Part shown: positions 19,054 through 34,130 of the stretch, one piece after another
How positions within the stretch are numbered: position 1 is the first letter of the stretch
Layout of the letters: each line of letters opens with the position of its first letter
From: Thermoplasmata archaeon
GTDB lineage: Archaea > Thermoplasmatota > Thermoplasmata > GCA-020350865
Assembly: GCA_020348445.1 (NCBI GenBank)
Contig: CP070751.1
Location: 4,653,060-4,717,059 of the forward strand
Reading direction: 5' to 3'
Length of the DNA stretch: 64,000 nt
Position numbers and translations under genes: made by a program
Notes under the pieces: generated by a model
Told to the model about the DNA's origin: nothing
The model's database searches: none
The model's input: the letters and a program-made list of their open reading frames with translations, nothing else

Positions 19054-20136
19054 TTACCTTATCCAGGCTATCTCGTAATCGAAATCCTGTCCTATTGCAT
19101 CGTGGTCTGGATAAACGCTTGCCGCCATTTGGCTTGTTGGACTGAGAACATTGGGGGAGTGTACGCCTGTCATGATGACCATTAGGCGAAGTCTGTCGTT
19201 GAATTCATCTGCTGTCCTTGCGCCTAGTATTATGTTCGCCGAGGAGTCCAGTTCGTATGTTACGCTCTCTGCTACCTTGTTCACCGTTCTCAGTGCGAGT
19301 TTTGATCCACCTGTTATGTGTATCAGTGCGCCTGTTGCACCTGTGTAATCCACATCGAGCAACGGATTGTTCAATGCATCTATTACCACTTGTTCTGGCT
19401 CTTGATCCATGCCTTCTCCATAGAGCATCATTGCTGTCCCGCCTTCGCACATAATGGATTTCACATCCGCGAAATCCAGATTTATTAGCGATGGCTTTGT
19501 TATGGTCTCTGTAATGCCCTTTATGACCTCTGATATGAGTTGGTCCATCACCGAAAATGCCTGATCTATGGGTAGATTGGGAACGAATTCCAGTAGTCTG
19601 TTGTTGTCAAGTACTATTACGCTGTCCGCTCTCTTTCTGAATTTCTCAAGGCCGCTTCTTGCCTTGATTTGTCTTGCTCTTTCCACATCAAAAGGTGTGG
19701 TGGCTATGCCAACCACTATTGCACCCAAGCTCTTTGCTATCTCTGCCAGTATTGGTGCAGATCCAGTGCCCGTCCCACCCCCCATCCCAGCCGCGATGAA
19801 CACCAAATCCGCCTCGCCCAAAACCTCTTCAAGTACATCTTTTGCCTGATCTGCTGCATCCTCGCCTATCTCTGGGTGACCGCCTGCTCCTAGTCCCTTG
19901 GTGATATTCTTTCCTATGAGTATCTTCTTGTCTGCCTCTATGATATCCAAGTGTTGCTTGTCGGTGTTGACAGCAATTGTTTCTGCGCCATGAACCCCTA
20001 TGTTATGTAGTCTATTTATGCTGTTATTACCAGCTCCGCCGCATCCTATTACCAGGATTTTTGGGTCTCCGAACTCTTTATAGAGCGCCTCTCTCTCTGC
20101 TGCATATTTTGCTGCACTCGACACTATCGAGTCCAT
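19054..20136 (-). CDS. ftsZ: Cell division GTPase FtsZ
   Basis: A 360-residue tubulin-like GTPase that forms the division ring. The nucleotide-binding [13 protein letters not shown] is at residues 31-43, the signature [12 protein letters not shown] near 117-128, and the synergy-loop region [11 protein letters not shown] near 220. The C-terminus is short and ends EIAWIR. The ATG at 20136 follows GGAGGTG; that site lies in the loop of a CTAAC/GTTAG hairpin. Upstream are a structured leader and a co-directional ribbon-helix-helix gene, an arrangement like the CdrS-ftsZ2 pair of haloarchaea. Confidence 0.96.
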
Positions 20137-20363: not shown

Positions 20364-20711
20364 TCATAATTTTTCTTCGCTGAGGGTTCTTTCTATTCGA
20401 ACTCGTATGTATTCTCTGACTGCATGTCGGATCGCATCGTCAACTGATACGGAATCGCCATCTTCCACCAGTTGCTCCAGTCTAACACTGTCACCTTTGG
20501 GTAGTTCCACTGCGATCTTTGATATGTTCGTGGGCACGTCTTCTTCTTCGATGAATCGTTCAATGGCTTCTCTCACAACATCGGATTTGGATTTGAACTC
20601 TCCTTTTTCCACTAGTGCGTTGAGTTTATCGAGCTTATCCGCTGGTACTCTAACCGTTATCCTTTCGGTTTCTGAGCTGTCTTGGCGTCTCTTTTTCTCC
20701 TGTGCTGACAC
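20364..20711 (-). CDS. Tandem ribbon-helix-helix (CopG/CdrS-like) regulator
   Basis: A 115-residue protein starting at a GTG (20711) with GTGAT upstream. It contains two ribbon-helix-helix units: ERITVRVPADKLDKLNALVE...SDVVREAIERFIE at about 15-55, and SKIAVELPKGDSVRLEQL...VDDAIRHAVREYIR at about 64-104. This equals a covalent dimer of the usual 45-residue RHH fold. It sits directly upstream of ftsZ on the same strand and divergent from tbp. In haloarchaea a short RHH protein (CdrS) next to ftsZ2 controls division genes, so a similar role is plausible. Palindromic TTGTCTGACAA elements at its own promoter suggest autoregulation. Confidence 0.85.
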   Translation of the reverse strand: MSAQEKKRRQDSSETERITVRVPADKLDKLNALVEKGEFKSKSDVVREAIERFIEEEDVPTNISKIAVELPKGDSVRLEQLVEDGDSVSVDDAIRHAVREYIRVRIERTLSEEKL

Positions 20712-20756
20712 TGGACATCACTTTGAATTGCTGTTCGTAGATTGTCTTTGGGAATC

Positions 20757-20787
20757 GTCAGACAACTTTTGGTGATTTGTCTGACAA
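20757..20787 (-). promoter_or_regulatory. Palindromic operator pair at the RHH gene promoter
   Basis: TTGTCTGACAA at 20777-20787 is a perfect palindrome around a central base. A second copy, GTCAGACAA, lies at 20757-20765. On the minus strand the promoter CGAAAGATTTATATACC (BRE plus TATA, about 20808-20823) would start transcription near 20785, so the perfect palindrome covers the start site and the other copy lies just downstream. This is the geometry of a repressor site; the RHH protein itself is the natural candidate to bind it. Confidence 0.6.
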
Positions 20788-20918
20788 AAGACTATATGTG
20801 TTAAGTGGTATATAAATCTTTCGTCTTCTGAGTGAAAAATATTATTTTTATGAATACTGGCTTTACTTTTATTATTACGGATTTTAAAGGTTTTTTGCAC
20901 TTCAATATTAATATCCAA

Positions 20919-20927
20919 TTGTCTGAC
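20919..20927 (+). promoter_or_regulatory. Third TTGTCTGAC element, upstream of tbp promoter
   Basis: A further copy of TTGTCTGAC, followed by GTGACGTC, lies upstream of two tbp TATA candidates (CTTTATAGTATATATAAC at 20943-20960 and GCGAAATGTTTATAAATG at 20965-20982). Within the 370-nt region 20712-21081 the only other visible signals are the operator pair and promoters; no small gene is seen. The shared element suggests that the RHH protein could also affect tbp. Confidence 0.45.
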
Positions 20928-21081
20928 GTGACGTCTTATTCCCTTTATAGTATATATAACAACAGCGAAATGTTTATAAATGGGTATTTAAATCAAGTGC
21001 GAAAATGGGGGAGAAACGAAGATTTTAACATATCGAGGAAAAAGAACTTAAGGATAATCTGAACAAATCGGAGGAATAATA

Positions 21082-21630
21082 ATGGCTGAGATAAAAATCG
21101 AAAATGTAGTGGCATCAACCTCTCTCGGAGAGGAGCTGAATTTACAGGCAATTGCCTTGGCATTGGATGGCGCTGAGTACGAGCCTGAGCAATTTCCAGG
21201 ATTAATTTACCGTCTTAAAGAACCCAAGACCGCAACACTGCTCTTTCGGAGTGGAAAGGTTGTATGCACAGGTGCAAAGAGCTTGGATCATGTTCGAATA
21301 GCAATTGATACCGTCATCAAACAGATAGGCAAGGCCGGTATTTCAGTTACAAGGGATCCCAAAATAGAGGTCCAGAACATTGTGGCATCATCGGATTTAG
21401 GATGCGAGATAAATTTGAATGCCATTGCAATCAGTCTGGGTCTCGAGAGGGTAGAGTACGAGCCCGAGCAATTCCCGGGATTGGTTTACCGTATTTCAGA
21501 TCCTAAGGTCGTGGTGTTGCTTTTCGGCTCAGGTAAACTCGTTTGCACAGGTGCAAGACGTCCCGAAGATGTTGAGGCAGCAGTGGACAAGATCACGGAT
21601 GAGCTGAGAGCAGCTGGTCTTTTGCACTAA
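21082..21630 (+). CDS. tbp: TATA-box binding protein
   Basis: A 182-residue archaeal TBP made of two direct repeats of about 90 residues. Each repeat carries the hallmark YEPEQFPGLIYR/YEPEQFPGLVYR and LLFxSGKxVCTGA segments. It binds the promoter TATA box and recruits TFB and RNA polymerase. CGGAGGAATAATA precedes the ATG. The leader of 70-80 nt is long for an archaeal gene, and the promoter region is shared with the divergent RHH gene. A T-rich stretch (CTTTTTACCTTTCTTA) follows the stop and may end the transcript. Confidence 0.97.
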   Translation: MAEIKIENVVASTSLGEELNLQAIALALDGAEYEPEQFPGLIYRLKEPKTATLLFRSGKVVCTGAKSLDHVRIAIDTVIKQIGKAGISVTRDPKIEVQNIVASSDLGCEINLNAIAISLGLERVEYEPEQFPGLVYRISDPKVVVLLFGSGKLVCTGARRPEDVEAAVDKITDELRAAGLLH

Positions 21631-22826: not shown

Positions 22827-25800
22827 ATGGAACAGGAACAGGATTTAACATCAATAGTTAGAGGCCATCAGATGTACATCAAATATTGCTGCAAGTCATA
22901 TTCAATTGTTATAACTGCTATGTTAATTCTATCTTCTTTTTTTTCGATATTCTTTATGAATGGATTAAATACTGTTTCAGGTGATGCAGCCGACACCATC
23001 GCCTCTGTCTCAGGCTCGAATATCAATGATAATTTCGGCTGGAATGTCTCAGATTGCGGGGACGTAAACGGTGATGGATTCGAGGATGTTATAGTCGGTG
23101 CTCCAAGTTATAACAGCAATCAAGGAAGGGCCTATATCATCTTTGGAGGTCCTAGCTTCGAAGGAGATCTAGCAGCTGATTCCGCTGATGTTATTCTCGA
23201 GGGGAGTTGGGCAAATGCCCTGTTTGGATGGGATGTATCTGGAGCAGGGGATTTCAATGGAGATGGAATCAACGAAACAATAGTTGGAGCTCCAGGAAAT
23301 AATAGCAATACGGGAGCTGCTTATATCTTCTACGGTAGCAGTTTTTTAAGTGGAACAATAAGTGCAACCAATGCCAATGTTACAATTGATGGGGAGAATA
23401 GTGGTGATTATTTCGGAAGCTCTGTCTCGGATCTTGGTGATGTAAGCAAGGAAAACCCTGTTGATCATGTTGTGATAAGCGAGGTTTATGCTAATGGAGT
23501 TGATGAGACCTCACCTGATATCGGTGAGTTTATGGAACTTTATAATCCTACATCAGCTCCTATTCCACTTGATAATTGGGTAATCGAGGATAACGATGGT
23601 CACAGTTTTACACTCTTTGGGACCATTCCAGCCAATGGATTCTTCTTGATTGCAGTGGATAACTATCTTGGATCAACAGATCCTACTGAGGCTTCATGGC
23701 CACCACCTGATTTTGATTGTGGTTACACGGCAGGCTCGGTCTTTGCCAATTCCGGAGATGAAATAAGAATAAAGGATGATACAGGTGCGGTCATCGACAC
23801 CTTCGGATACAGTGTTAATGCAGAATGGTACGAAGGAACCTACCATCCTGCTTTACCCAATCCATGGGAGAGTTACGAGAGAAAACTTGGAGAGACATCA
23901 CCAACTGGTGGAAATGCGATAGACACCGATAACAATGGAAACGATTTTGCAGTAAGATCTGCAGCCGAACCACAAAACACAGCATCTGCAATTGAGATTC
24001 CCCCCAATCAAAGCATATACGATGATGTGATTATAGGGGCCCACGGTTGGGGAAATGACAAGGGAAGGGCCTATGTATTCTATGGAAGTAGTGGGAATCC
24101 CGTAGATGCCAGCAGTGCAGATGTCATTTTAACAGGAGAATCTGATAACGATCTATTTGGATTTACGGTTTCAGGGGCAGGTGATGTAAATTCTGATGGA
24201 TTTGACGATATTCTAGTGGGTGCACCAGGATATAACAACAACCGAGGCAGAAGCTACATATATCACGGTGCCCAGAATATGTCGAGCTGGACCCAGGATA
24301 TGATAATGGCACATTGGGATGAGAGCACCGGTGCAGTTTTTGATATTGCCAATGTGTATGCAATATATGAAAAAAGATGGCTTGCCCAATCTTTCACTCC
24401 TGATCAAGATTACCTTTTAACAAAGGTCTGGTTATACCTGGATAATATTGGAGATACCACAATATCCATTTCTTTAGAAGGAGATAACAACGGTCCAGAT
24501 GGGGTAATCCTTGCCCTAGCAAATCCCAAACCTAACATTCCCCCAGGTCCAAATCCTCTTACCTGGATGGAATTCGAGTTCACAAATCCATTCCAGGCCA
24601 CTGCAGGCACCATGTATTGGATAACTGCCCGGGCCACTGGAAAGAATACAAATAACTGCTGGGGATGGCTTCAGGATTTGGATTCCAATCCCAATTATTC
24701 AGGTGGTTATTCGGCTTTCTTGATCAATCCCCCTGGAACCTGGACCGAGGAGCCTGATTATGATTACTGGTTCAAGGTTATGGGTAAATTGCCTGGTGAA
24801 CTCACAGCCGATGTAACTCTTACAGGAGAAATTCAAGGAGACCGATTCGGTTGGTCAGTTTCAGATGCGGGTGATATCGGTGGGGATGGATTTGATGATG
24901 TGATTTTAGGTGCACCGGAAACTGCAAATGGAAATGCATATTTGATAAATGGAAGTACCATCATGAAAGATGTCACAGTTGCAGGAATAGATTGGGGAGA
25001 TGAAAAACAACGTGCAAATTGGGAAACTGGAGGAGATATGGAGGCTGCAGTTTACTCCGGTCAATTTGTTGCTCAGTCCTTCATCGCGCAGGAAACTTAC
25101 CTCCAAACTAATGTGAGCCTTTTGATCAAAGCTTTTGGGACCTCGGGAACTTTAACTGTTATGCTCATGGGAAGCTCAGGATCTTCACCAGATACGGTAC
25201 CAGATGGCACTGTTTTAGCCCAGGCACCTTCAATCAGCACTGGAAATGTTTCCTATGAATGGGCTGTATTTGAATGGATGGTACCATATATCTGCACAGC
25301 AGGCACAGAATATTTCATTGTAGGCGAAGGAACAGGAGCCGATACTTCAAACTGTTGGGGATGGTTTGGACAGCGAGGAGGAAATTATCCCGATGGAGAT
25401 TCAGCATACGACCAGGGTGGTGGTTGGACAGCATACGATGCTGATTTCTATTTCAGGGAGTTCGGAAAATCAGAAACCGCTCTTCCGAACATCACATTTT
25501 CAGGTGAATCACCAGGTGACAAGTTCGGATACTCTGTCTCCGATGCCGGGAATTTCAATGGAGATGCCTATGACGATGTAGTAGTGGGTGCTCCCGAAAA
25601 TGGAAACGGAAAGGTGTATCTTTTCAATTGCTCAAATGTTCTCCCTATTACAATTCAAGCAATCAATGCAAATTATTCTGCGTTGGGAGAAAACCTGCAG
25701 GATCGATTTGGATGGTCAGTGTCTAGAGCTGGGGATATCAACCAGTCCATGGGTTATGATGAAGTAATTGTAGGAACCCCATATCAGGATCCCAGTGGAA

Positions 25801-28800
25801 TCAGCGATGCAGGCAAGGCATATATTCTCTCAATGCCTGTCGGTGCCCCTATTCCACCTGTAGTGGATCTTCCCTTTAGGATAAACAACGACGCCGAGTT
25901 TGCTGCTATAGCGGCAGCTGAGGGTTGGGTTGGGGATGGAAGTGCTGGTAATCCGTATATTATCGAGAATTACGACATTGATGGGGGAGGTTACGGTTAT
26001 TGTATATATATAGGAAATACCACGGTGAGCTTCGTAATTAGGGACTGCAATTTGTATAATTCAAGCGGCAATCCTGGGATATATAATTGGGATTCGGGAA
26101 TTGCACTTTATAATTCTATGAATGGAACGTTGAAAGGCAATACCTTTGAGAATTGCACAGGCAATGCACTACATATTGTGGGAAGTACAAATATCAGTAT
26201 TTCCCAGAATGATTTCTTAAACAGCACGGGAAGCGGAATATATCTTGAATCGTCTGTAGGCAATAATATAGATGATAATACCTTTGATAACAACAACTAT
26301 GGATTGGAGATGAACTCAAACAGCGACTCCAATATAATCACTAACAACTCATTTACCAACAATTCGGAAGCAATGGATTTATGGTCATGTGATGGCAACA
26401 TCATATCAGGCAATTACGGGGATAACAACGGCATGTTCGCTTATCTTTTTAGTTGGTGTAATGGTAATGAGTTTCTAAATAACACCATTGTCAATTCCAA
26501 TACAGGAATTTACCTGCAAAGCAATTGCAATGGCAATACAATACAGAATAATACTATTTCAGATATTAACCAGGAAGGAATAATAATTGAAAGCTCGAGT
26601 TCTAATGTTTTAGAGGGCAATGATGTCCAAAGATGTGATACTGGACTTTATACAATTTTAGCCTCCCTCAACATCATATCCAATAACACATTCTCAAACA
26701 ATACAGATTATGGAATATACCTTGATCCAAGTTCTGACCAGAACACAATTTCCAACAACACAATCGCTTACAATGGAATCTATGGGATTCTCTTGATCAG
26801 CGCAGATCTCAATGTTATCATATACAATGACATTTTCAACAACTCTGAATATGGGATAGATGCGGAGGGCACAACAAATGATAATCAAATTCATCACAAC
26901 ATTTTTTCCGATAATAACGGAGGGGATGTGCAGGCCTTTGACGATGGAACCGACAATAGGTGGAATGATACCTCTGGTGAGGGAAATCTGTGGGGAGATT
27001 ACGAGGATAGATACGTCCCCCCAGCATCTAGTAACGGGATCGTATGGGATATCCCCTATGACATAAATGGTTCGGCAGGTGCTCAAGATCTATTTCCATT
27101 GGCCCTTTATCCATGGTATCAGGATCTTAGAATCGACAACGACACCGATTTTGCAGATACTGCGGCATTTTTCGGTTGGATTGGAGATGGAAGTAGTTCA
27201 AACCCATATATCATAGAAGGTCTCACAATTGACGCTGGAGGTTTAGGATACGGTATATATATCGGGAACACCACAGCCAATTTCATAATCCGCAACTGTT
27301 CTATCGAGAACTCAAATGGTAATTCAAATCAGTTCTTCCGGAATTCTGGAATTTATCTTTTCAATGTCACAAATGGTATCTTAGATAATAATGAGATTAA
27401 AGCCTGTGACGGAAATGGAATCAATATCGAATATTCAAAAGATATTGTTGTGACCAATAATACATGCAGGTACAACAACTGGAGCGGGATCTACACAGGG
27501 TATTACAGCAATATCACAATCTCGAACAATACATGCAATTTCAATAACTGGAGCGGAGTGTACCTCTGGTCCACAAACGATAGTTTTGTTATAAACAATA
27601 CCTGTTTGAACAACTCGGATGGCATAACCTTGGAATACTCCGATAATAATCTCATTGCAGATAACGTCCTAAATAACAATTCTTGGGAGGGGATATATGC
27701 GGATAATTCCCACCTAAACACCATAACTGACAACACATGTCTGAGAAATTATGATGGATTATATCTTTACTATTCTGATAACAACACTGTTTCGGGAAAT
27801 CAGTTCTCAAATAATACCCAGGGAGGATTTGGAGGAACAGGGATATTCTTGGACCATGGAGATTACAATGATATTCTCAACAACACTTGTTCTGGAAATA
27901 AAGAGGATGGGATATACATATTCTACTCAGATTTCAGTTTTGTTGATAACAATACATGCCAGGACAACCCCAATGACGGAATTTCAGTTTATAAGTCAAT
28001 TAACTGCACAATTTCCAACAACACAGTAACAGGAAATCAATTTGGTATCTTATTGGAAAACAGGTGCTTTGACATCATAATCGAGAATAACAACATTTCC
28101 TACAATCTTGATGACGGGATCTATTTCCTCATCCTGTGTATCAATAACACCATCAGAAATAATACCATAGAAGGCAATGGTGACGATGGGATTTATATGA
28201 ACGATAGAAATAGAGCCAACCTTATTGATAACAACACAATCTCCAAAAACGGAGGAAATGGAATCAACCTAACTGATGATTCAGATGAATTTATCATCAT
28301 ATACAATATAATCGCAAATAACACAGAATATGGATTACAGATTTTAGATAACGATTGCGAAAATAGTCTTATACATCACAATGGTTTTTACTTCAATAAC
28401 GGAAGCGGTGTTCAGGCCTACGATAATGGCTCAAATACCTGGGACGATGGATACCCCTCAGGTGGTAATTTCTGGACAGACTACATTGGTGTTGATTTTA
28501 ACAGCACACCAACACAGGATGTTCCGCCACCTGATGGATTCGGGGATACACCTTATGATATAGACGGCCCCAAAGGAGCAAAGGACAGGTATCCCCTGAT
28601 AACGTTCCCATGGTCCCCCCCACCTCCTGTTGGTCTACCTGAGATATCAAATGTTACGGCACTTCCTGATCCTCAAGAGACTGGAGGGTTTGTGAACATC
28701 ACCTGCAATGTGACAGATTCAGATGGAGTTTCTGAGGTTTGGGTGAATGTAACTTTACCCTCAGGCGGATTTATCAATTCCTCTTTGAATAAAGGAACAG

Positions 28801-31800
28801 GGGACTTTTGGTTCCTAAACTCACCATATTCAATTTTGGGTGTTCACGATTTTGTCATATGGGCAAAAGATGTGGCTGGGATTTGGAACGGCTCTATAGA
28901 ATATACCTTCACGATCCAGGACACAACACCACCAATGATTTTCAATGTTCTGAACCTACCTGATCCTCAGGAAGTGGGAGGCTCTGTAAATATTACCTGC
29001 GATGTTACAGATAATGTGGGTGTTATGGGAGTATGGGTAAATATTTCTCTACCTGATGGTGGATTTACAAATACCTCGATGATAAAGGATACAGGAAATC
29101 AGTGGTTCTATGAAGCTGTTTATATGCAGGTTGGTGGGTATTCCTTCACTATTTGGGCCAATGACTCTTCCGGAAACTGGGGTATTTCAATAAACAACAA
29201 TTTCCAAATTCTGGATACCACCTCACCCGTTATTTCCAATGTTTTAGATATTCCAGATCCGCAACTTACTGGAGGTTCCGTAAATATAACTTGCGATGTT
29301 ACCGATAATTTCGCGCTCTATGAAGTTTGGGTGAATATTTCTTTACCTGCTGGAGGATATATCAATTCCTCAATGATAAAAGGACCTGTTGATCAATGGT
29401 TCCTGGATTCAATCTATATCCCATTGGGTATTTACAACTACGTGATCTGGGCAAATGATACCGAGAATAACTGGGCCTCTTCTTCTGGACATACGTTTAC
29501 AATATTCGATGGAAATTCACCAGTTATATCAGATGTTCTTGACATTCCAGATCCCCAGGAGATAGGCGGCCTTGTCAATATTACATGCAATGTCACCGAT
29601 GATGTTGGTGTTTTGGAGGTTTGGGTGAACATCACATTGCCAAGCGGAGGTTACAGTAATGTCTCCATGAACAAAGGAGCAAGCGATGAATGGTTCCTAG
29701 AGTCGCCATATATAGCTTTAGGCGCTTATGACTATGTGATATGGGCAGGTGACACAAGCTCCAATTGGGTTAGTTCCACAGGTCACAGTTTTACAATCCA
29801 GGATACAACCTTACCTGTTATCTCAAATGTTATAGATACTCCAGATCCCCAAGAAGTAGGCGGTGCTGTCAACATAACGTGTGATGTCATGGATAATGTC
29901 GAGATATTTGGGGTCTGGGTGAACATAACCTCCCCAGGTGGAGGATTTGTAAACCTTTCAATGACAAAGGGAGTAGGTGATGGATGGTTCCACGACTCCA
30001 TATATCCAGTTCTTGGCTTACATGATTATGTCATCTGGGCAAAAGATTCATCAGATAACTGGGCTAGCTCATCTGGTTATAGCTTCCTAATTCAGGATAC
30101 AACTTTACCTTCCATTTCCAATGTGATGGATGTTCCTGATCCCCAGGAGGTTGATGGCAATGTCAATATTTCTTGTGAAGTTACAGATAATGTAGAAGTA
30201 AGTGGGGTTTGGGTAAACATCATGCTGCCAGGAGGAGGAACTGTAAATATATCCATGACAAAAGGACCTGGGGATACCTGGTTTTATGATATCCCTTACA
30301 CCTCCTTGGGCACCCATGATTATGTAATCTGGGCTAACGACACATCAGGAAACTGGATCTTTTCATCAGGTCACAGCTTCTTAATACAGGATACAATCCC
30401 GCCAGTGATATCCAATGTCTTGGATGATCCTGATCCTCAGGAGATACTAAATCGGGTAAACATCACATGTGAGGTGACAGATAATGTTCAGGTTTATGAT
30501 GTCTGGGTGAACATCACTTCACCTGGAGGAGGATCCATAAATATATCCATGACAAAAGGTCCAGGGGATACTTGGTTCTATGATGCCCCTTATGTCCTTT
30601 TGGGCATCCATTATTATGTAATATGGGCAAATGATACATCTGGAAATTGGATTGGCTCATCCGGTCACATTATCTTGGTTCATGATACCACCTTGCCAGT
30701 AATTTCCAATGTAGTAGCTACACCTGATCCACAAGATGTCGGCGAGAGGGTTAATATCACATGTGAAGTAACTGACAATGTGGAATTATTCAATGTCTGG
30801 ATTTACATCAATCTCCCGGGAGGGGGATTTGTAAATGTCTCCATGACCACGGGAGCAGGCGATATTTGGTACAACGATACAATACGCAACTTGGTAGGCA
30901 TCCATGACTATTTAATATGGGCCAATGACACCCAGGGAAACTGGAACTTCTCATCTGGGCATGGTTTTACAATCCAACAACTTGCTCCGTACGATATCAT
31001 TCTAATTTCTGGAGACGGGCAGAGCGGGACTGTGGGTACACAATTGGGAGCTCCTTTTATAGTTGAAGTTCGTGATAAATTTGGAAATCCTGTTCCAAAT
31101 GCCGATGTTTGGTTCAATATCACCCTTGGAGGAGGATCAATTGATATTTCAAGTCCTATATCAACGGATAATAACGGAAGAGGACAAGTAAACCTTACAT
31201 TAGGCACCACTTCTGGAACCAACACCGTTACTGCTGAAATAGCTGGCTTGGGAATCAATCAGGTTGTTTTCAGTGCTTTTGGAGATCCGGATATACCTGA
31301 TAGCATCGTCATCATCTCAGGAGATGGACAAATCGGCACAGTTGGTACTCAACTTGCTTTTCCATTGGTCATCGAAGTGCATGATCAGTATGGAAATCCA
31401 GTCCCAGGTACGAATGTCTGGTTCAATGCAACAGCTGGTTTTGGAATCTTAAGCACAGGTAATCCTGTATTGACCAATGGCAATGGAAGGGCGCAAACGC
31501 AACTCACGCTAGGAACATTTACAGGCTTAAATGCTGTTACCGCCGAAATCGTAGGTAATGGTATAACACAGGTTATATTCATTGAAACTGGAATTCCTGG
31601 TGCACCTCATGACATCGTGATAATCTCAGGCAACGGACAAATTGGCACAGTGGGCACTCGTTTAGCCCAGCCATTTGTGGTTGAGGTTACAGATATATTT
31701 GGTAATCCTGTTCCCAATGCCCCAACTTGGTTCAATATAACAAACGGAGACGGATCTCTTGACTCTGTCAGTCCCATAATCACAGATGCAAATGGTAGGG

Positions 31801-34130
31801 CTCAGGTCAATATGACCCTGGGAGAAGTACCTGAGGCAAATTCTGTATCCGCCGAGATAAGTGGCCTTGGAATAACACAAGTTGTATTTTCGGCTGTAGG
31901 AATTACCAATCGACCCGAGATCATAACACATATCTCCAACATAGAATTAACTGAGGATGATCCACCTTACACCCTGAATCTTTTTGCTTCTGCTTTGGAC
32001 GATGAAGACCTTCCGCAGGATTTGGATTGGATTATTACAGATTTTAATAGCTCCTTATATTCTATTGGTGGCCAGGGAACAAATACATTGGTTATTATTC
32101 CAAAACCAAACATGTTCGGAAACGATAACGTAACTTTGTGGGTTTCGGATTCTCAGGGTCTTTCTGACTCCCAGCCCCTATGGATCAATATAACGCCTGT
32201 TAATGATAAACCGTATTTCTTTCCAGAGCCTCCGGATTTGACAATAACAAAAGATATACCGTACACATTCAACTATGCTCCTTATATTCACGATATCGAC
32301 AACACCATAGATGAGCTTACTATTACAACCGATGATCCGGGTCGTGCAACCCCAGGAAGTCCCATAATCACATATTTGTACCCATCCTCCATGGTTGGCC
32401 AGCAGGTCTTTGTAACCTTGACTGTAAGTGATGGACTCGATAGTTCCTCTGTTGTAATCCGGATAAATGTGACCGAGGACAATGTACCTGTTTTAAAGAG
32501 TGAGCTACCAGATATTATCATGTATGAGGACGAGACCAAATTATGTGTGTTCGATCTCGATGAATACTTCTACGATCCTGATGGAGATGCCGTTTATTAC
32601 TCCTATGGGTACTCCCATATCAAAATAATAATCAACGACAACAACAGTGTCGATTTTATTTCAGAAACTGATTGGTATGGCCAGGAGACCGTCATATTCC
32701 GTGCTCGAGACCCGAACTTTGCCATTGTCGAGGATTCGATATTGGTCACGGTTTTCCCAGTAAATGATCCGCCAATTATCTCGGGCGTGCCAGATCTGGT
32801 CGTACACTACGATGCAGATTATTTCTTTGATCTCTCACCTTATATAACTGATGCAGACAACATCAACTCTGACCTCAGCTTAACATTCTTGGAATACTCA
32901 AGTGGGACCTGGAATTTATCAGAAAACATCAGTGTCTCTTTGGATAATAATCTGAAGATGATGGTCAACTACTCCATTGATTATCTGGGTAATAAAATCC
33001 AGGTTCAAATCGAAGTTTTTGACGGAACTGATTCAGCTTGGGAGACGATAAATATAACGGTTTCCGAAGACTGGCCTCCTGAATTGCACACAAATATCCC
33101 TGATATTATATTTGATGAAGATGAATACCTATCTGATCATATCAATGTCAACAACTATTTCATTGATAGAGACGGCGATGCCCTGTTCTTTACATACGGG
33201 CAGGAACATGTACAGATAATAATATATGAAAGCGGCAGTGTGGATTTCTTTGCTGATGAGAATTGGTTTGGCATGGAAAACATCACCATAAGGGCAACCG
33301 ATCCCTCCGGTGCCTTGGTGGAGGATATAATAATTGTCACGGTGCTTCCAGTAAACGATGCACCAGTTATAGAAAACATACCACATCAGGAAGGGATTGT
33401 GGGCACAACATGGGTCTTGGATCTAAGGCCATATCTTGATGATGTTGACAACAACATCACAGAGTTGGAGATATTCTGCGATTCTCCATATGTAACTGTT
33501 GTGGGAACGGTCTTGGTATTCCAATACCCGTCCGATGTGACGGAGGACATAGTTCAAATAATAGTAAGGGACCCTGATTCTGCCAATGCAACCACTGCGT
33601 TCAACGTTACACTTACCAAGTTAACGGCCCCTGGAAAGGATGAGTTTGATATCATGCCTTTTATTTGGACAATAATACTGATTATAATCGTTATAATCAT
33701 GGTAATTATTCTTTATATTTATCAAAAGGGAAAGTACGAGGTGGAAGAGGTCCTTTTAGTCTTTGGTCAAAGCGGTCTTTTGATATCTCACAAGTATAAG
33801 GGTGAAGAAGCAGATATAGACAGGGATCTTATGGCCAGCCTGTTTACCGCCATCCAGGACTTTGTAAATGATGTATTTGAATCCGGGGATTCCAAGGGAA
33901 CAAGGCTTAATGTCATGGAAATAGGGGATAGAAAGGTCATGATCGAGCGGGGCAAGTATACATACCTTGCGGCAGTGTTTAAAGGTGGAACATGGAGGCT
34001 TGAAACCAAATTGAAGGCGACTGTGGAGGATTTAGAAACCGAATACAGTGATGTATTCCAAGAATGGGAGGGGGATATGGAGGACTTCAAGGGAATAGAG
34101 GAGTATCTCGATGGGCTTGTAACAACATGA
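22827..34130 (+). CDS. Giant modular surface protein (3767 residues) with cytosolic roadblock/longin-like tail
   Basis: Domains in order: signal peptide (about 29-54), FG-GAP repeats (60-210), a lamin-tail-like domain (211-388), more FG-GAP with two choice-of-anchor-like jelly-roll domains (395-1001), and two NosD-like beta-helix regions (about 1011-1428 and 1431-1928). Then eight Ig-like repeats of exactly 98 residues (about 1935-2719), three invasin/Big_1-like repeats (2722-3025) and six cadherin-like units (3027-3605). A transmembrane helix (IWTIILIIIVIIMVIILYIY) is followed by a 130-residue cytosolic domain beginning EVEEVLLVFGQSGLLISH and containing IGDRKVMIERGKYTYLAAVF, resembling roadblock/longin folds. 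N-x-S/T sequons are very frequent. The ATG at 22872 has a closer binding site and may be the true start. The role is unknown; adhesion linked to a cytosolic small-GTPase partner is inference. Confidence 0.85.
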   Translation: MEQEQDLTSIVRGHQMYIKYCCKSYSIVITAMLILSSFFSIFFMNGLNTVSGDAADTIASVSGSNINDNFGWNVSDCGDVNGDGFEDVIVGAPSYNSNQGRAYIIFGGPSFEGDLAADSADVILEGSWANALFGWDVSGAGDFNGDGINETIVGAPGNNSNTGAAYIFYGSSFLSGTISATNANVTIDGENSGDYFGSSVSDLGDVSKENPVDHVVISEVYANGVDETSPDIGEFMELYNPTSAPIPLDNWVIEDNDGHSFTLFGTIPANGFFLIAVDNYLGSTDPTEASWPPPDFDCGYTAGSVFANSGDEIRIKDDTGAVIDTFGYSVNAEWYEGTYHPALPNPWESYERKLGETSPTGGNAIDTDNNGNDFAVRSAAEPQNTASAIEIPPNQSIYDDVIIGAHGWGNDKGRAYVFYGSSGNPVDASSADVILTGESDNDLFGFTVSGAGDVNSDGFDDILVGAPGYNNNRGRSYIYHGAQNMSSWTQDMIMAHWDESTGAVFDIANVYAIYEKRWLAQSFTPDQDYLLTKVWLYLDNIGDTTISISLEGDNNGPDGVILALANPKPNIPPGPNPLTWMEFEFTNPFQATAGTMYWITARATGKNTNNCWGWLQDLDSNPNYSGGYSAFLINPPGTWTEEPDYDYWFKVMGKLPGELTADVTLTGEIQGDRFGWSVSDAGDIGGDGFDDVILGAPETANGNAYLINGSTIMKDVTVAGIDWGDEKQRANWETGGDMEAAVYSGQFVAQSFIAQETYLQTNVSLLIKAFGTSGTLTVMLMGSSGSSPDTVPDGTVLAQAPSISTGNVSYEWAVFEWMVPYICTAGTEYFIVGEGTGADTSNCWGWFGQRGGNYPDGDSAYDQGGGWTAYDADFYFREFGKSETALPNITFSGESPGDKFGYSVSDAGNFNGDAYDDVVVGAPENGNGKVYLFNCSNVLPITIQAINANYSALGENLQDRFGWSVSRAGDINQSMGYDEVIVGTPYQDPSGISDAGKAYILSMPVGAPIPPVVDLPFRINNDAEFAAIAAAEGWVGDGSAGNPYIIENYDIDGGGYGYCIYIGNTTVSFVIRDCNLYNSSGNPGIYNWDSGIALYNSMNGTLKGNTFENCTGNALHIVGSTNISISQNDFLNSTGSGIYLESSVGNNIDDNTFDNNNYGLEMNSNSDSNIITNNSFTNNSEAMDLWSCDGNIISGNYGDNNGMFAYLFSWCNGNEFLNNTIVNSNTGIYLQSNCNGNTIQNNTISDINQEGIIIESSSSNVLEGNDVQRCDTGLYTILASLNIISNNTFSNNTDYGIYLDPSSDQNTISNNTIAYNGIYGILLISADLNVIIYNDIFNNSEYGIDAEGTTNDNQIHHNIFSDNNGGDVQAFDDGTDNRWNDTSGEGNLWGDYEDRYVPPASSNGIVWDIPYDINGSAGAQDLFPLALYPWYQDLRIDNDTDFADTAAFFGWIGDGSSSNPYIIEGLTIDAGGLGYGIYIGNTTANFIIRNCSIENSNGNSNQFFRNSGIYLFNVTNGILDNNEIKACDGNGINIEYSKDIVVTNNTCRYNNWSGIYTGYYSNITISNNTCNFNNWSGVYLWSTNDSFVINNTCLNNSDGITLEYSDNNLIADNVLNNNSWEGIYADNSHLNTITDNTCLRNYDGLYLYYSDNNTVSGNQFSNNTQGGFGGTGIFLDHGDYNDILNNTCSGNKEDGIYIFYSDFSFVDNNTCQDNPNDGISVYKSINCTISNNTVTGNQFGILLENRCFDIIIENNNISYNLDDGIYFLILCINNTIRNNTIEGNGDDGIYMNDRNRANLIDNNTISKNGGNGINLTDDSDEFIIIYNIIANNTEYGLQILDNDCENSLIHHNGFYFNNGSGVQAYDNGSNTWDDGYPSGGNFWTDYIGVDFNSTPTQDVPPPDGFGDTPYDIDGPKGAKDRYPLITFPWSPPPPVGLPEISNVTALPDPQETGGFVNITCNVTDSDGVSEVWVNVTLPSGGFINSSLNKGTGDFWFLNSPYSILGVHDFVIWAKDVAGIWNGSIEYTFTIQDTTPPMIFNVLNLPDPQEVGGSVNITCDVTDNVGVMGVWVNISLPDGGFTNTSMIKDTGNQWFYEAVYMQVGGYSFTIWANDSSGNWGISINNNFQILDTTSPVISNVLDIPDPQLTGGSVNITCDVTDNFALYEVWVNISLPAGGYINSSMIKGPVDQWFLDSIYIPLGIYNYVIWANDTENNWASSSGHTFTIFDGNSPVISDVLDIPDPQEIGGLVNITCNVTDDVGVLEVWVNITLPSGGYSNVSMNKGASDEWFLESPYIALGAYDYVIWAGDTSSNWVSSTGHSFTIQDTTLPVISNVIDTPDPQEVGGAVNITCDVMDNVEIFGVWVNITSPGGGFVNLSMTKGVGDGWFHDSIYPVLGLHDYVIWAKDSSDNWASSSGYSFLIQDTTLPSISNVMDVPDPQEVDGNVNISCEVTDNVEVSGVWVNIMLPGGGTVNISMTKGPGDTWFYDIPYTSLGTHDYVIWANDTSGNWIFSSGHSFLIQDTIPPVISNVLDDPDPQEILNRVNITCEVTDNVQVYDVWVNITSPGGGSINISMTKGPGDTWFYDAPYVLLGIHYYVIWANDTSGNWIGSSGHIILVHDTTLPVISNVVATPDPQDVGERVNITCEVTDNVELFNVWIYINLPGGGFVNVSMTTGAGDIWYNDTIRNLVGIHDYLIWANDTQGNWNFSSGHGFTIQQLAPYDIILISGDGQSGTVGTQLGAPFIVEVRDKFGNPVPNADVWFNITLGGGSIDISSPISTDNNGRGQVNLTLGTTSGTNTVTAEIAGLGINQVVFSAFGDPDIPDSIVIISGDGQIGTVGTQLAFPLVIEVHDQYGNPVPGTNVWFNATAGFGILSTGNPVLTNGNGRAQTQLTLGTFTGLNAVTAEIVGNGITQVIFIETGIPGAPHDIVIISGNGQIGTVGTRLAQPFVVEVTDIFGNPVPNAPTWFNITNGDGSLDSVSPIITDANGRAQVNMTLGEVPEANSVSAEISGLGITQVVFSAVGITNRPEIITHISNIELTEDDPPYTLNLFASALDDEDLPQDLDWIITDFNSSLYSIGGQGTNTLVIIPKPNMFGNDNVTLWVSDSQGLSDSQPLWINITPVNDKPYFFPEPPDLTITKDIPYTFNYAPYIHDIDNTIDELTITTDDPGRATPGSPIITYLYPSSMVGQQVFVTLTVSDGLDSSSVVIRINVTEDNVPVLKSELPDIIMYEDETKLCVFDLDEYFYDPDGDAVYYSYGYSHIKIIINDNNSVDFISETDWYGQETVIFRARDPNFAIVEDSILVTVFPVNDPPIISGVPDLVVHYDADYFFDLSPYITDADNINSDLSLTFLEYSSGTWNLSENISVSLDNNLKMMVNYSIDYLGNKIQVQIEVFDGTDSAWETINITVSEDWPPELHTNIPDIIFDEDEYLSDHINVNNYFIDRDGDALFFTYGQEHVQIIIYESGSVDFFADENWFGMENITIRATDPSGALVEDIIIVTVLPVNDAPVIENIPHQEGIVGTTWVLDLRPYLDDVDNNITELEIFCDSPYVTVVGTVLVFQYPSDVTEDIVQIIVRDPDSANATTAFNVTLTKLTAPGKDEFDIMPFIWTIILIIIVIIMVIILYIYQKGKYEVEEVLLVFGQSGLLISHKYKGEEADIDRDLMASLFTAIQDFVNDVFESGDSKGTRLNVMEIGDRKVMIERGKYTYLAAVFKGGTWRLETKLKATVEDLETEYSDVFQEWEGDMEDFKGIEEYLDGLVTT
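28640..30985 (+). repeat. Eight tandem Ig-like repeats with a constant 294-nt period
   Basis: Within the giant gene, units of 98 codons each begin near ISNVLDxPDPQEVGG and continue NITCDVTDN, VWVNIxLPGGG, a WF...Y segment and YVIWANDTSGNW. Unit starts fall at about 28640, 28925, 29219, 29513, 29807, 30101, 30395 and 30689. The period is invariant while the sequence has diverged, so the copies are functional repeats under length constraint rather than a fresh duplication. Confidence 0.8.
30985..31905 (+). repeat. Three invasin-like (Big_1) repeats in the giant surface gene
   Basis: Three units of about 102 codons begin IxISGxGQxGTVGTxLxxP, continue EVxDxFGNPVPxxxxWFN and end NGRxQxxLTLGxxxxxNxVxAEIxGxGIxQVVF. 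This is the bacterial Ig-like group 1 pattern found in adhesins, where the GNPV loop links the beta strands. Confidence 0.75.

Follow-up and report, generated by a model that had tools for sequence, protein, structure and literature searches.

Directly upstream of ftsZ, the 64-kb stretch of DNA analysed here (the window) carries a gene for an RHH protein and, divergent from it, tbp; three boxes with the core GTCNGAC lie between the two. The question raised by this locus is what these boxes do and which genes they tie together. A first-pass annotation, made from the sequence alone, had read them as a possible switch joining cell division to a general transcription factor. According to the comparisons presented here, they are very probably the sites by which the RHH protein controls its own gene, ftsZ, smc, and the genes of a membrane-protein family.

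Genes of the locus and the RHH protein

The features of the locus, in window coordinates, are the following:
19054..20136, minus strand: ftsZ, 360 aa, ftsZ2 type
20364..20711, minus strand: gene of the CdrS-like regulator (cdrS), 115 aa, two RHH units, GTG start
20755..20765, strand not assigned: putative operator box 2, TCGTCAGACAA, in the cdrS leader, 22 bp from box 1
20777..20787, strand not assigned: putative operator box 1, TTGTCTGACAA, at the predicted start site of cdrS
20809..20816, minus strand: TATA box of the cdrS promoter, TTTATATA, from a sequence match and the class-wide profile
20919..20929, strand not assigned: third box, TTGTCTGACGT, 19 bp before the tbp TATA, conserved in the genus only
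20949..20959, plus strand: probable tbp TATA element, AGTATATATAA, kept in the sister species
21082..21630, plus strand: tbp, TATA-binding protein, 182 aa, divergent

The two fused RHH units noticed in the first reading were borne out by Pfam (RHH_1, 2.3e-12), by NCBIfam, and by the AlphaFold model (pLDDT 85), in which each of two helix-helix units is preceded by an extended strand segment. The best NCBIfam family is that of the haloarchaeal CdrS (NF058555, E 4.7e-14), and each unit of the 115-aa protein aligns with the 61-aa haloarchaeal CdrS. NF058555 models the haloarchaeal equivalogs, and the protein remains under its cut-off (52 bits vs. 100); moreover, with 115 residues and two units it departs from the short, single-RHH form typical of CdrS (55–61 aa). 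Judged by its sequence, it is a two-RHH homologue of the 61-aa haloarchaeal CdrS and not an equivalog. A Foldseek search with the two-unit monomer returned no significant match, the top ones being the RHH domains of ParD and NikR, and a scan of the genome contigs with the window protein as query gave no match.

The identities of the window FtsZ and TBP were confirmed. The former shares 60–63% identity with the cdrS-linked FtsZ2 of haloarchaea and 42–48% with FtsZ1; thus, the likeness to haloarchaeal CdrS that had been seen in the gene order holds, a CdrS homologue lying directly upstream of an ftsZ2-type gene. The gap between the two genes is 227 bp, vs. 2–3 nt in haloarchaea; cdrS and ftsZ may be cotranscribed. 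Elsewhere in the window (22827-34130), a repeat-rich surface protein of 3767 aa with a membrane segment at its C-terminus is predicted.

Boxes at the cdrS promoter

Box 1 is a perfect palindrome around its central base, and box 2 has one mismatch. On the minus strand, the order of the elements is TTTATATA (20816-20809), TTGTCAGACAA (20787-20777), TTGTCTGACGA (20765-20755), which is box 2 read on that strand, and the RHH gene's GTG start codon (20711). Since a minus-strand TATA box lies at 20809-20816, the cdrS start site is predicted, from the TATA spacing alone (some 25 bp beyond the centre of the TATA box), near 20787, within the palindrome. This agrees with the first-pass annotation, which had placed TTGTCTGACAA over the probable start of the RHH gene. 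The second copy that it had reported downstream is present as well, with one mismatch and at a centre-to-centre distance of 22 bp, not 20 bp; the third element, which it had seen upstream of the divergent tbp, is found as TTGTCTGACG, 142 bp from box 1.

The window contains five GTCNGAC sites, three of them within 165 bp at cdrS/tbp (P ~2e-4 for five random sites). When two mismatches were allowed, the whole window yielded 22 matches vs. 23 expected, that is, no excess; the case for the boxes therefore rests on their clustering and on their conservation.

Conservation across the class

A homologue of the RHH protein was retrieved from 99 of 100 relatives, mostly adjoining ftsZ. The GTCNGAC core occurs in 74 of the 82 cdrS upstream regions, against 5 for the reversed motif and 4.7 for shuffled ones, so that the conservation in relatives on which the first-pass annotation had staked its reading was indeed found. 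In a genome-wide search, two cores at exactly 22 bp were present in 55/100 genomes (reversed control, 5/100), and a spacing of 23 bp, taken as negative control, gave 2/100. Furthermore, profiles anchored on the box place a BRE at -33..-31 and a TATA box at -28..-22, a fixed distance which implies that the box begins at the start site across the class.

The palindrome might also be a chance occurrence or act at the RNA level, with no regulatory role, and the loose matches, not elevated across the window, would fit this; the class-wide conservation, the fixed spacing, and the reversed and mis-spaced controls already contradict it and leave it a negligible probability.

The core box is spread over many families of the class. 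It is absent upstream of cdrS in f17 (Thermoplasma-like), in most of f6, and in f21, and in these families cdrS is divergent or ftsZ is unlinked. The cdrS promoters of f18 (genomes G025, G052, and G096) carry three boxes in a row, in steps of 22 bp.

Other genes carrying the box

The perfect palindrome TTGTCWGACAA occurs at five sites of the genome from which the window comes: at cdrS, at smc (with a TATA box before it), at a TPR gene, at a membrane-protein gene (followed after 12 bp by a weaker second box), and inside an oxidoreductase gene, where it is probably due to chance. The tandem ftsZ pair of this genome has no box. The palindrome at the TPR gene (locus L091, position 4094) follows a TATA-like stretch and lies upstream of a protein of more than 1270 aa; a further box is found 127 bp upstream.

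The smc and tbp promoters were compared on the 30 best-matching loci each. For smc, 29/30 relatives have the core (control, 1/30), and the boxes are usually paired at 11 or 12 bp, just after the TATA box. Box pairs at 11 bp, searched over whole genomes, were detected in 54/100 (reversed control, 13/100) and recovered smc together with a family of membrane proteins, about 300 residues long, that combine several TM segments with a tail and whose boxes also follow the TATA box. This family, seen with boxes in f6, f7, f15, and f18, is homologous to the box-bearing membrane protein of the genome under study (E down to 6e-33) and has no counterpart among the Pfam families. No homology was detected, and none is claimed, with the DUF7139/DUF7140 protein, which from its position and mRNA size would be HVO_0739.

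Additional box-bearing genes are a second ftsZ, sepF, and a RecA/KaiC-like ATPase gene in f7, and a second ftsZ in f14. Boxes at other ftsZ paralogues as a general feature were rejected (10/40 vs. 10/40 in the control), since they are confined to one f7 paralogue and to f14; within the class, sepF has boxes in f7 only. In three f7 genomes (loci L434-L436), an 11-bp box pair stands directly before the KaiC/RecA-like ATPase gene. Both species of the window's genus also have a 22-bp pair upstream of a gene for a small, Pro-rich secreted protein that belongs to no family (155 and 120 aa; G000:C1:2290494-2290522, locus L133, and G001:C1:159098-159126, locus L134).

The divergent tbp gene

The smc and membrane-protein genes are more conserved partners of the box than tbp is. 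Only 6 of 29 tbp upstream regions contain the core (control, 3), and three of these six are shared cdrS-tbp intergenic regions, so that a general tbp regulon was rejected and the proposed switch between division and tbp did not stand as a general feature. Only f1 and f20 were found to have a tbp divergent from cdrS; the third box is confined to two species, those of the window's genus.

In this genus, CdrS could still regulate tbp through the third box, which lies in the intergenic region that the two genes share. The core of this box is 10/10 identical between the window and the sister species, while the 90 bp before it, in the middle of the region, are 37% identical, and it lies at about -54 from the predicted tbp start, 19 bp before a conserved TATA box, a position that resembles, by analogy, that of the haloarchaeal activator, near the -50 of Haloferax ftsZ1. 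Against this, f20, which also has a divergent tbp, lacks the third box, found in two genomes only, and the tbp genes of the other families are boxless outside the shared intergenic regions. Hence, we regard such a switch as rather doubtful, the data supporting a tbp link at the genus level only. In the sister genome, no more than the first 72 residues of tbp are encoded at the cdrS locus and an almost full-length tbp (residues 14–182) elsewhere (G001:C1:1589657 and 467900), by rearrangement or an assembly break.

The same box at haloarchaeal CdrS targets

Residues R17, T19, and R21 are invariant in the RHH homologues of the class, giving a recognition strand R-[IV]-T-x-R, and the strand of haloarchaeal CdrS, RVTLR, fits it. 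This shared strand would explain why the GTCNGAC box is common to the class and to haloarchaea.

The comparison drew on 80 haloarchaeal cdrS loci, and the query used to collect them was borne out by its matches. The haloarchaeal ftsZ1 promoters carry one or mostly two GTCNGAC, usually 11 bp apart and directly before BRE/TATA; one of the 12, that of Halolamina, has no box there. The exact pair GTCNGAC-N4-GTCNGAC occurs 3–5 times per genome in three Haloferax species (control, 0) and in all three marks ftsZ1 and hisB/HVO_2987, where hisB is divergent from a small-membrane-protein gene. Both are CdrS ChIP-seq targets in Haloferax (PMC8406309, Table 1), and the comparison covered these two among the targets, which also include dacZ, panA, and psmB. 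The ftsZ1 pair is estimated to be centred at about -50 relative to the start, in accordance with the position given in PMC8406309 (-50). GTCNGAC thus appears to be the box at the ChIP-proven CdrS targets, as read from the promoters of relatives of H. volcanii and not from H. volcanii. In Halobellus, a box pair precedes sepF.

The upstream regions of haloarchaeal cdrS mostly have no matching box near the start. They show (L280-L359 and L360-L371) a conserved GTAAGAC/GTCTTAC, one base off the CdrS core in TTGTCTTACAA, which is possibly a CdrL site or an altered CdrS site.

Halobacterium has a CdrL-binding site upstream of cdrS-ftsZ2, and the genome under study encodes further RHH proteins, so that another regulator might bind the boxes and also control cdrS. 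CdrL, however, is reported from haloarchaea only, Haloferax relatives carry the box at targets of CdrS proven by ChIP, and families with a divergent cdrS or an unlinked ftsZ (f6, f17, and f21) lack it; we consider this explanation distinctly improbable.

A model for the regulation of division and segregation genes

We consider it likely, on the strength of the promoter comparisons, that the boxes are CdrS-like operators, bound cooperatively in pairs, through which cdrS-ftsZ, smc, and the membrane-protein gene are repressed. The two-RHH protein would bind the GTCNGAC core, flanked here by TT..AA. Paired boxes would lie on the same side of the DNA helix, 22 bp corresponding to two turns (cdrS) and 11/12 bp to one (smc and the membrane-protein gene); cooperative binding is suggested because these spacings are whole helical turns. 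A protein bound on a start site usually hinders RNA polymerase. As the boxes cover the predicted start site and the leader of cdrS-ftsZ, their occupancy should block initiation, and from the start-site position the CdrS operator here is probably autorepressing. CdrS would in this way repress its own gene and ftsZ, as well as smc and the membrane-protein gene, on which it would act by the same boxes; this would place a division and segregation regulon under negative feedback.

CdrS might instead bind the boxes and activate cdrS-ftsZ and smc, as proposed for Haloferax ftsZ1. There, knockdown of cdrS-ftsZ2 lowers the transcripts of ftsZ1, sepF, and an smc homologue, most CdrS sites lie 41–110 bp upstream, and CdrS is proposed as an ftsZ1 activator (PMC8406309), binding at its own promoter not being reported. 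Yet at cdrS, smc, and the membrane-protein gene the boxes are downstream of the TATA box, on the start site, and activation of these genes is in our opinion unlikely. The same box upstream of the TATA (haloarchaeal ftsZ1) would go with activation and, given the upstream Haloferax sites and the proposed activation of ftsZ1, the position of the box may set the sign.

In a wider, tentative reading, to which we give somewhat less than even credence, this would be an ancient archaeal division-and-segregation regulon: the GTCNGAC box would predate the split between Halobacteria and the present Thermoplasmata-like class, spacing and position relative to the TATA would set the sign, and the boxed multi-TM protein with its disordered tail would be an unrecognised component of the FtsZ machinery. 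Knowledge of transcriptional cell-cycle control in archaea comes from few species, and the literature search, whose coverage many journals fall outside, retrieved no CdrS outside haloarchaea and no such operator. If the proposal is true, a short DNA word predicts cell-division regulons class-wide and ties them to the experimental one of haloarchaea, smc comes directly under the ftsZ regulator, and a new membrane division protein is nominated; moreover, the short promoters would allow an in vitro test of one factor repressing or activating according to position.

Comparison with known systems

As described in PMC7617429 and PMC12284271, aCcr1 of Sulfolobales is likewise an RHH protein that represses genes of cell division and segregation (cdvA, segAB), acting in an ESCRT-type division and in another gene neighbourhood, whereas the gene described here is ftsZ-linked. 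The window protein was rejected as an aCcr1, its match to NF053762 being weak (5e-5) and under the cut-off and its gene being linked to ftsZ. SegB of Saccharolobus (PMC12284271), also of the RHH type, has palindromic sites upstream of the operon that encodes it but, unlike the present protein, it is a partition protein, and its box is TCTAGA-S-TCTAGA.

In the CdrS-ftsZ2 system of Haloferax volcanii and Halobacterium salinarum (PMC8406309, PMC7439475), as here, an RHH regulator precedes ftsZ2. The likeness extends to the recognition strand, to the GTCNGAC at the ftsZ1 and hisB promoters of Haloferax relatives, and to the genes concerned, division genes and an smc homologue responding to the knockdown there and smc being boxed here. 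The haloarchaeal protein, in contrast, has 55–61 aa and one RHH, against 115 aa and two units; its own promoters have GTAAGAC/GTCTTAC instead of boxes at 22 bp on the start site of the operon; and the boxes at smc and at the membrane-protein gene are, unlike in haloarchaeal CdrS-ftsZ2, a feature of the system described here.
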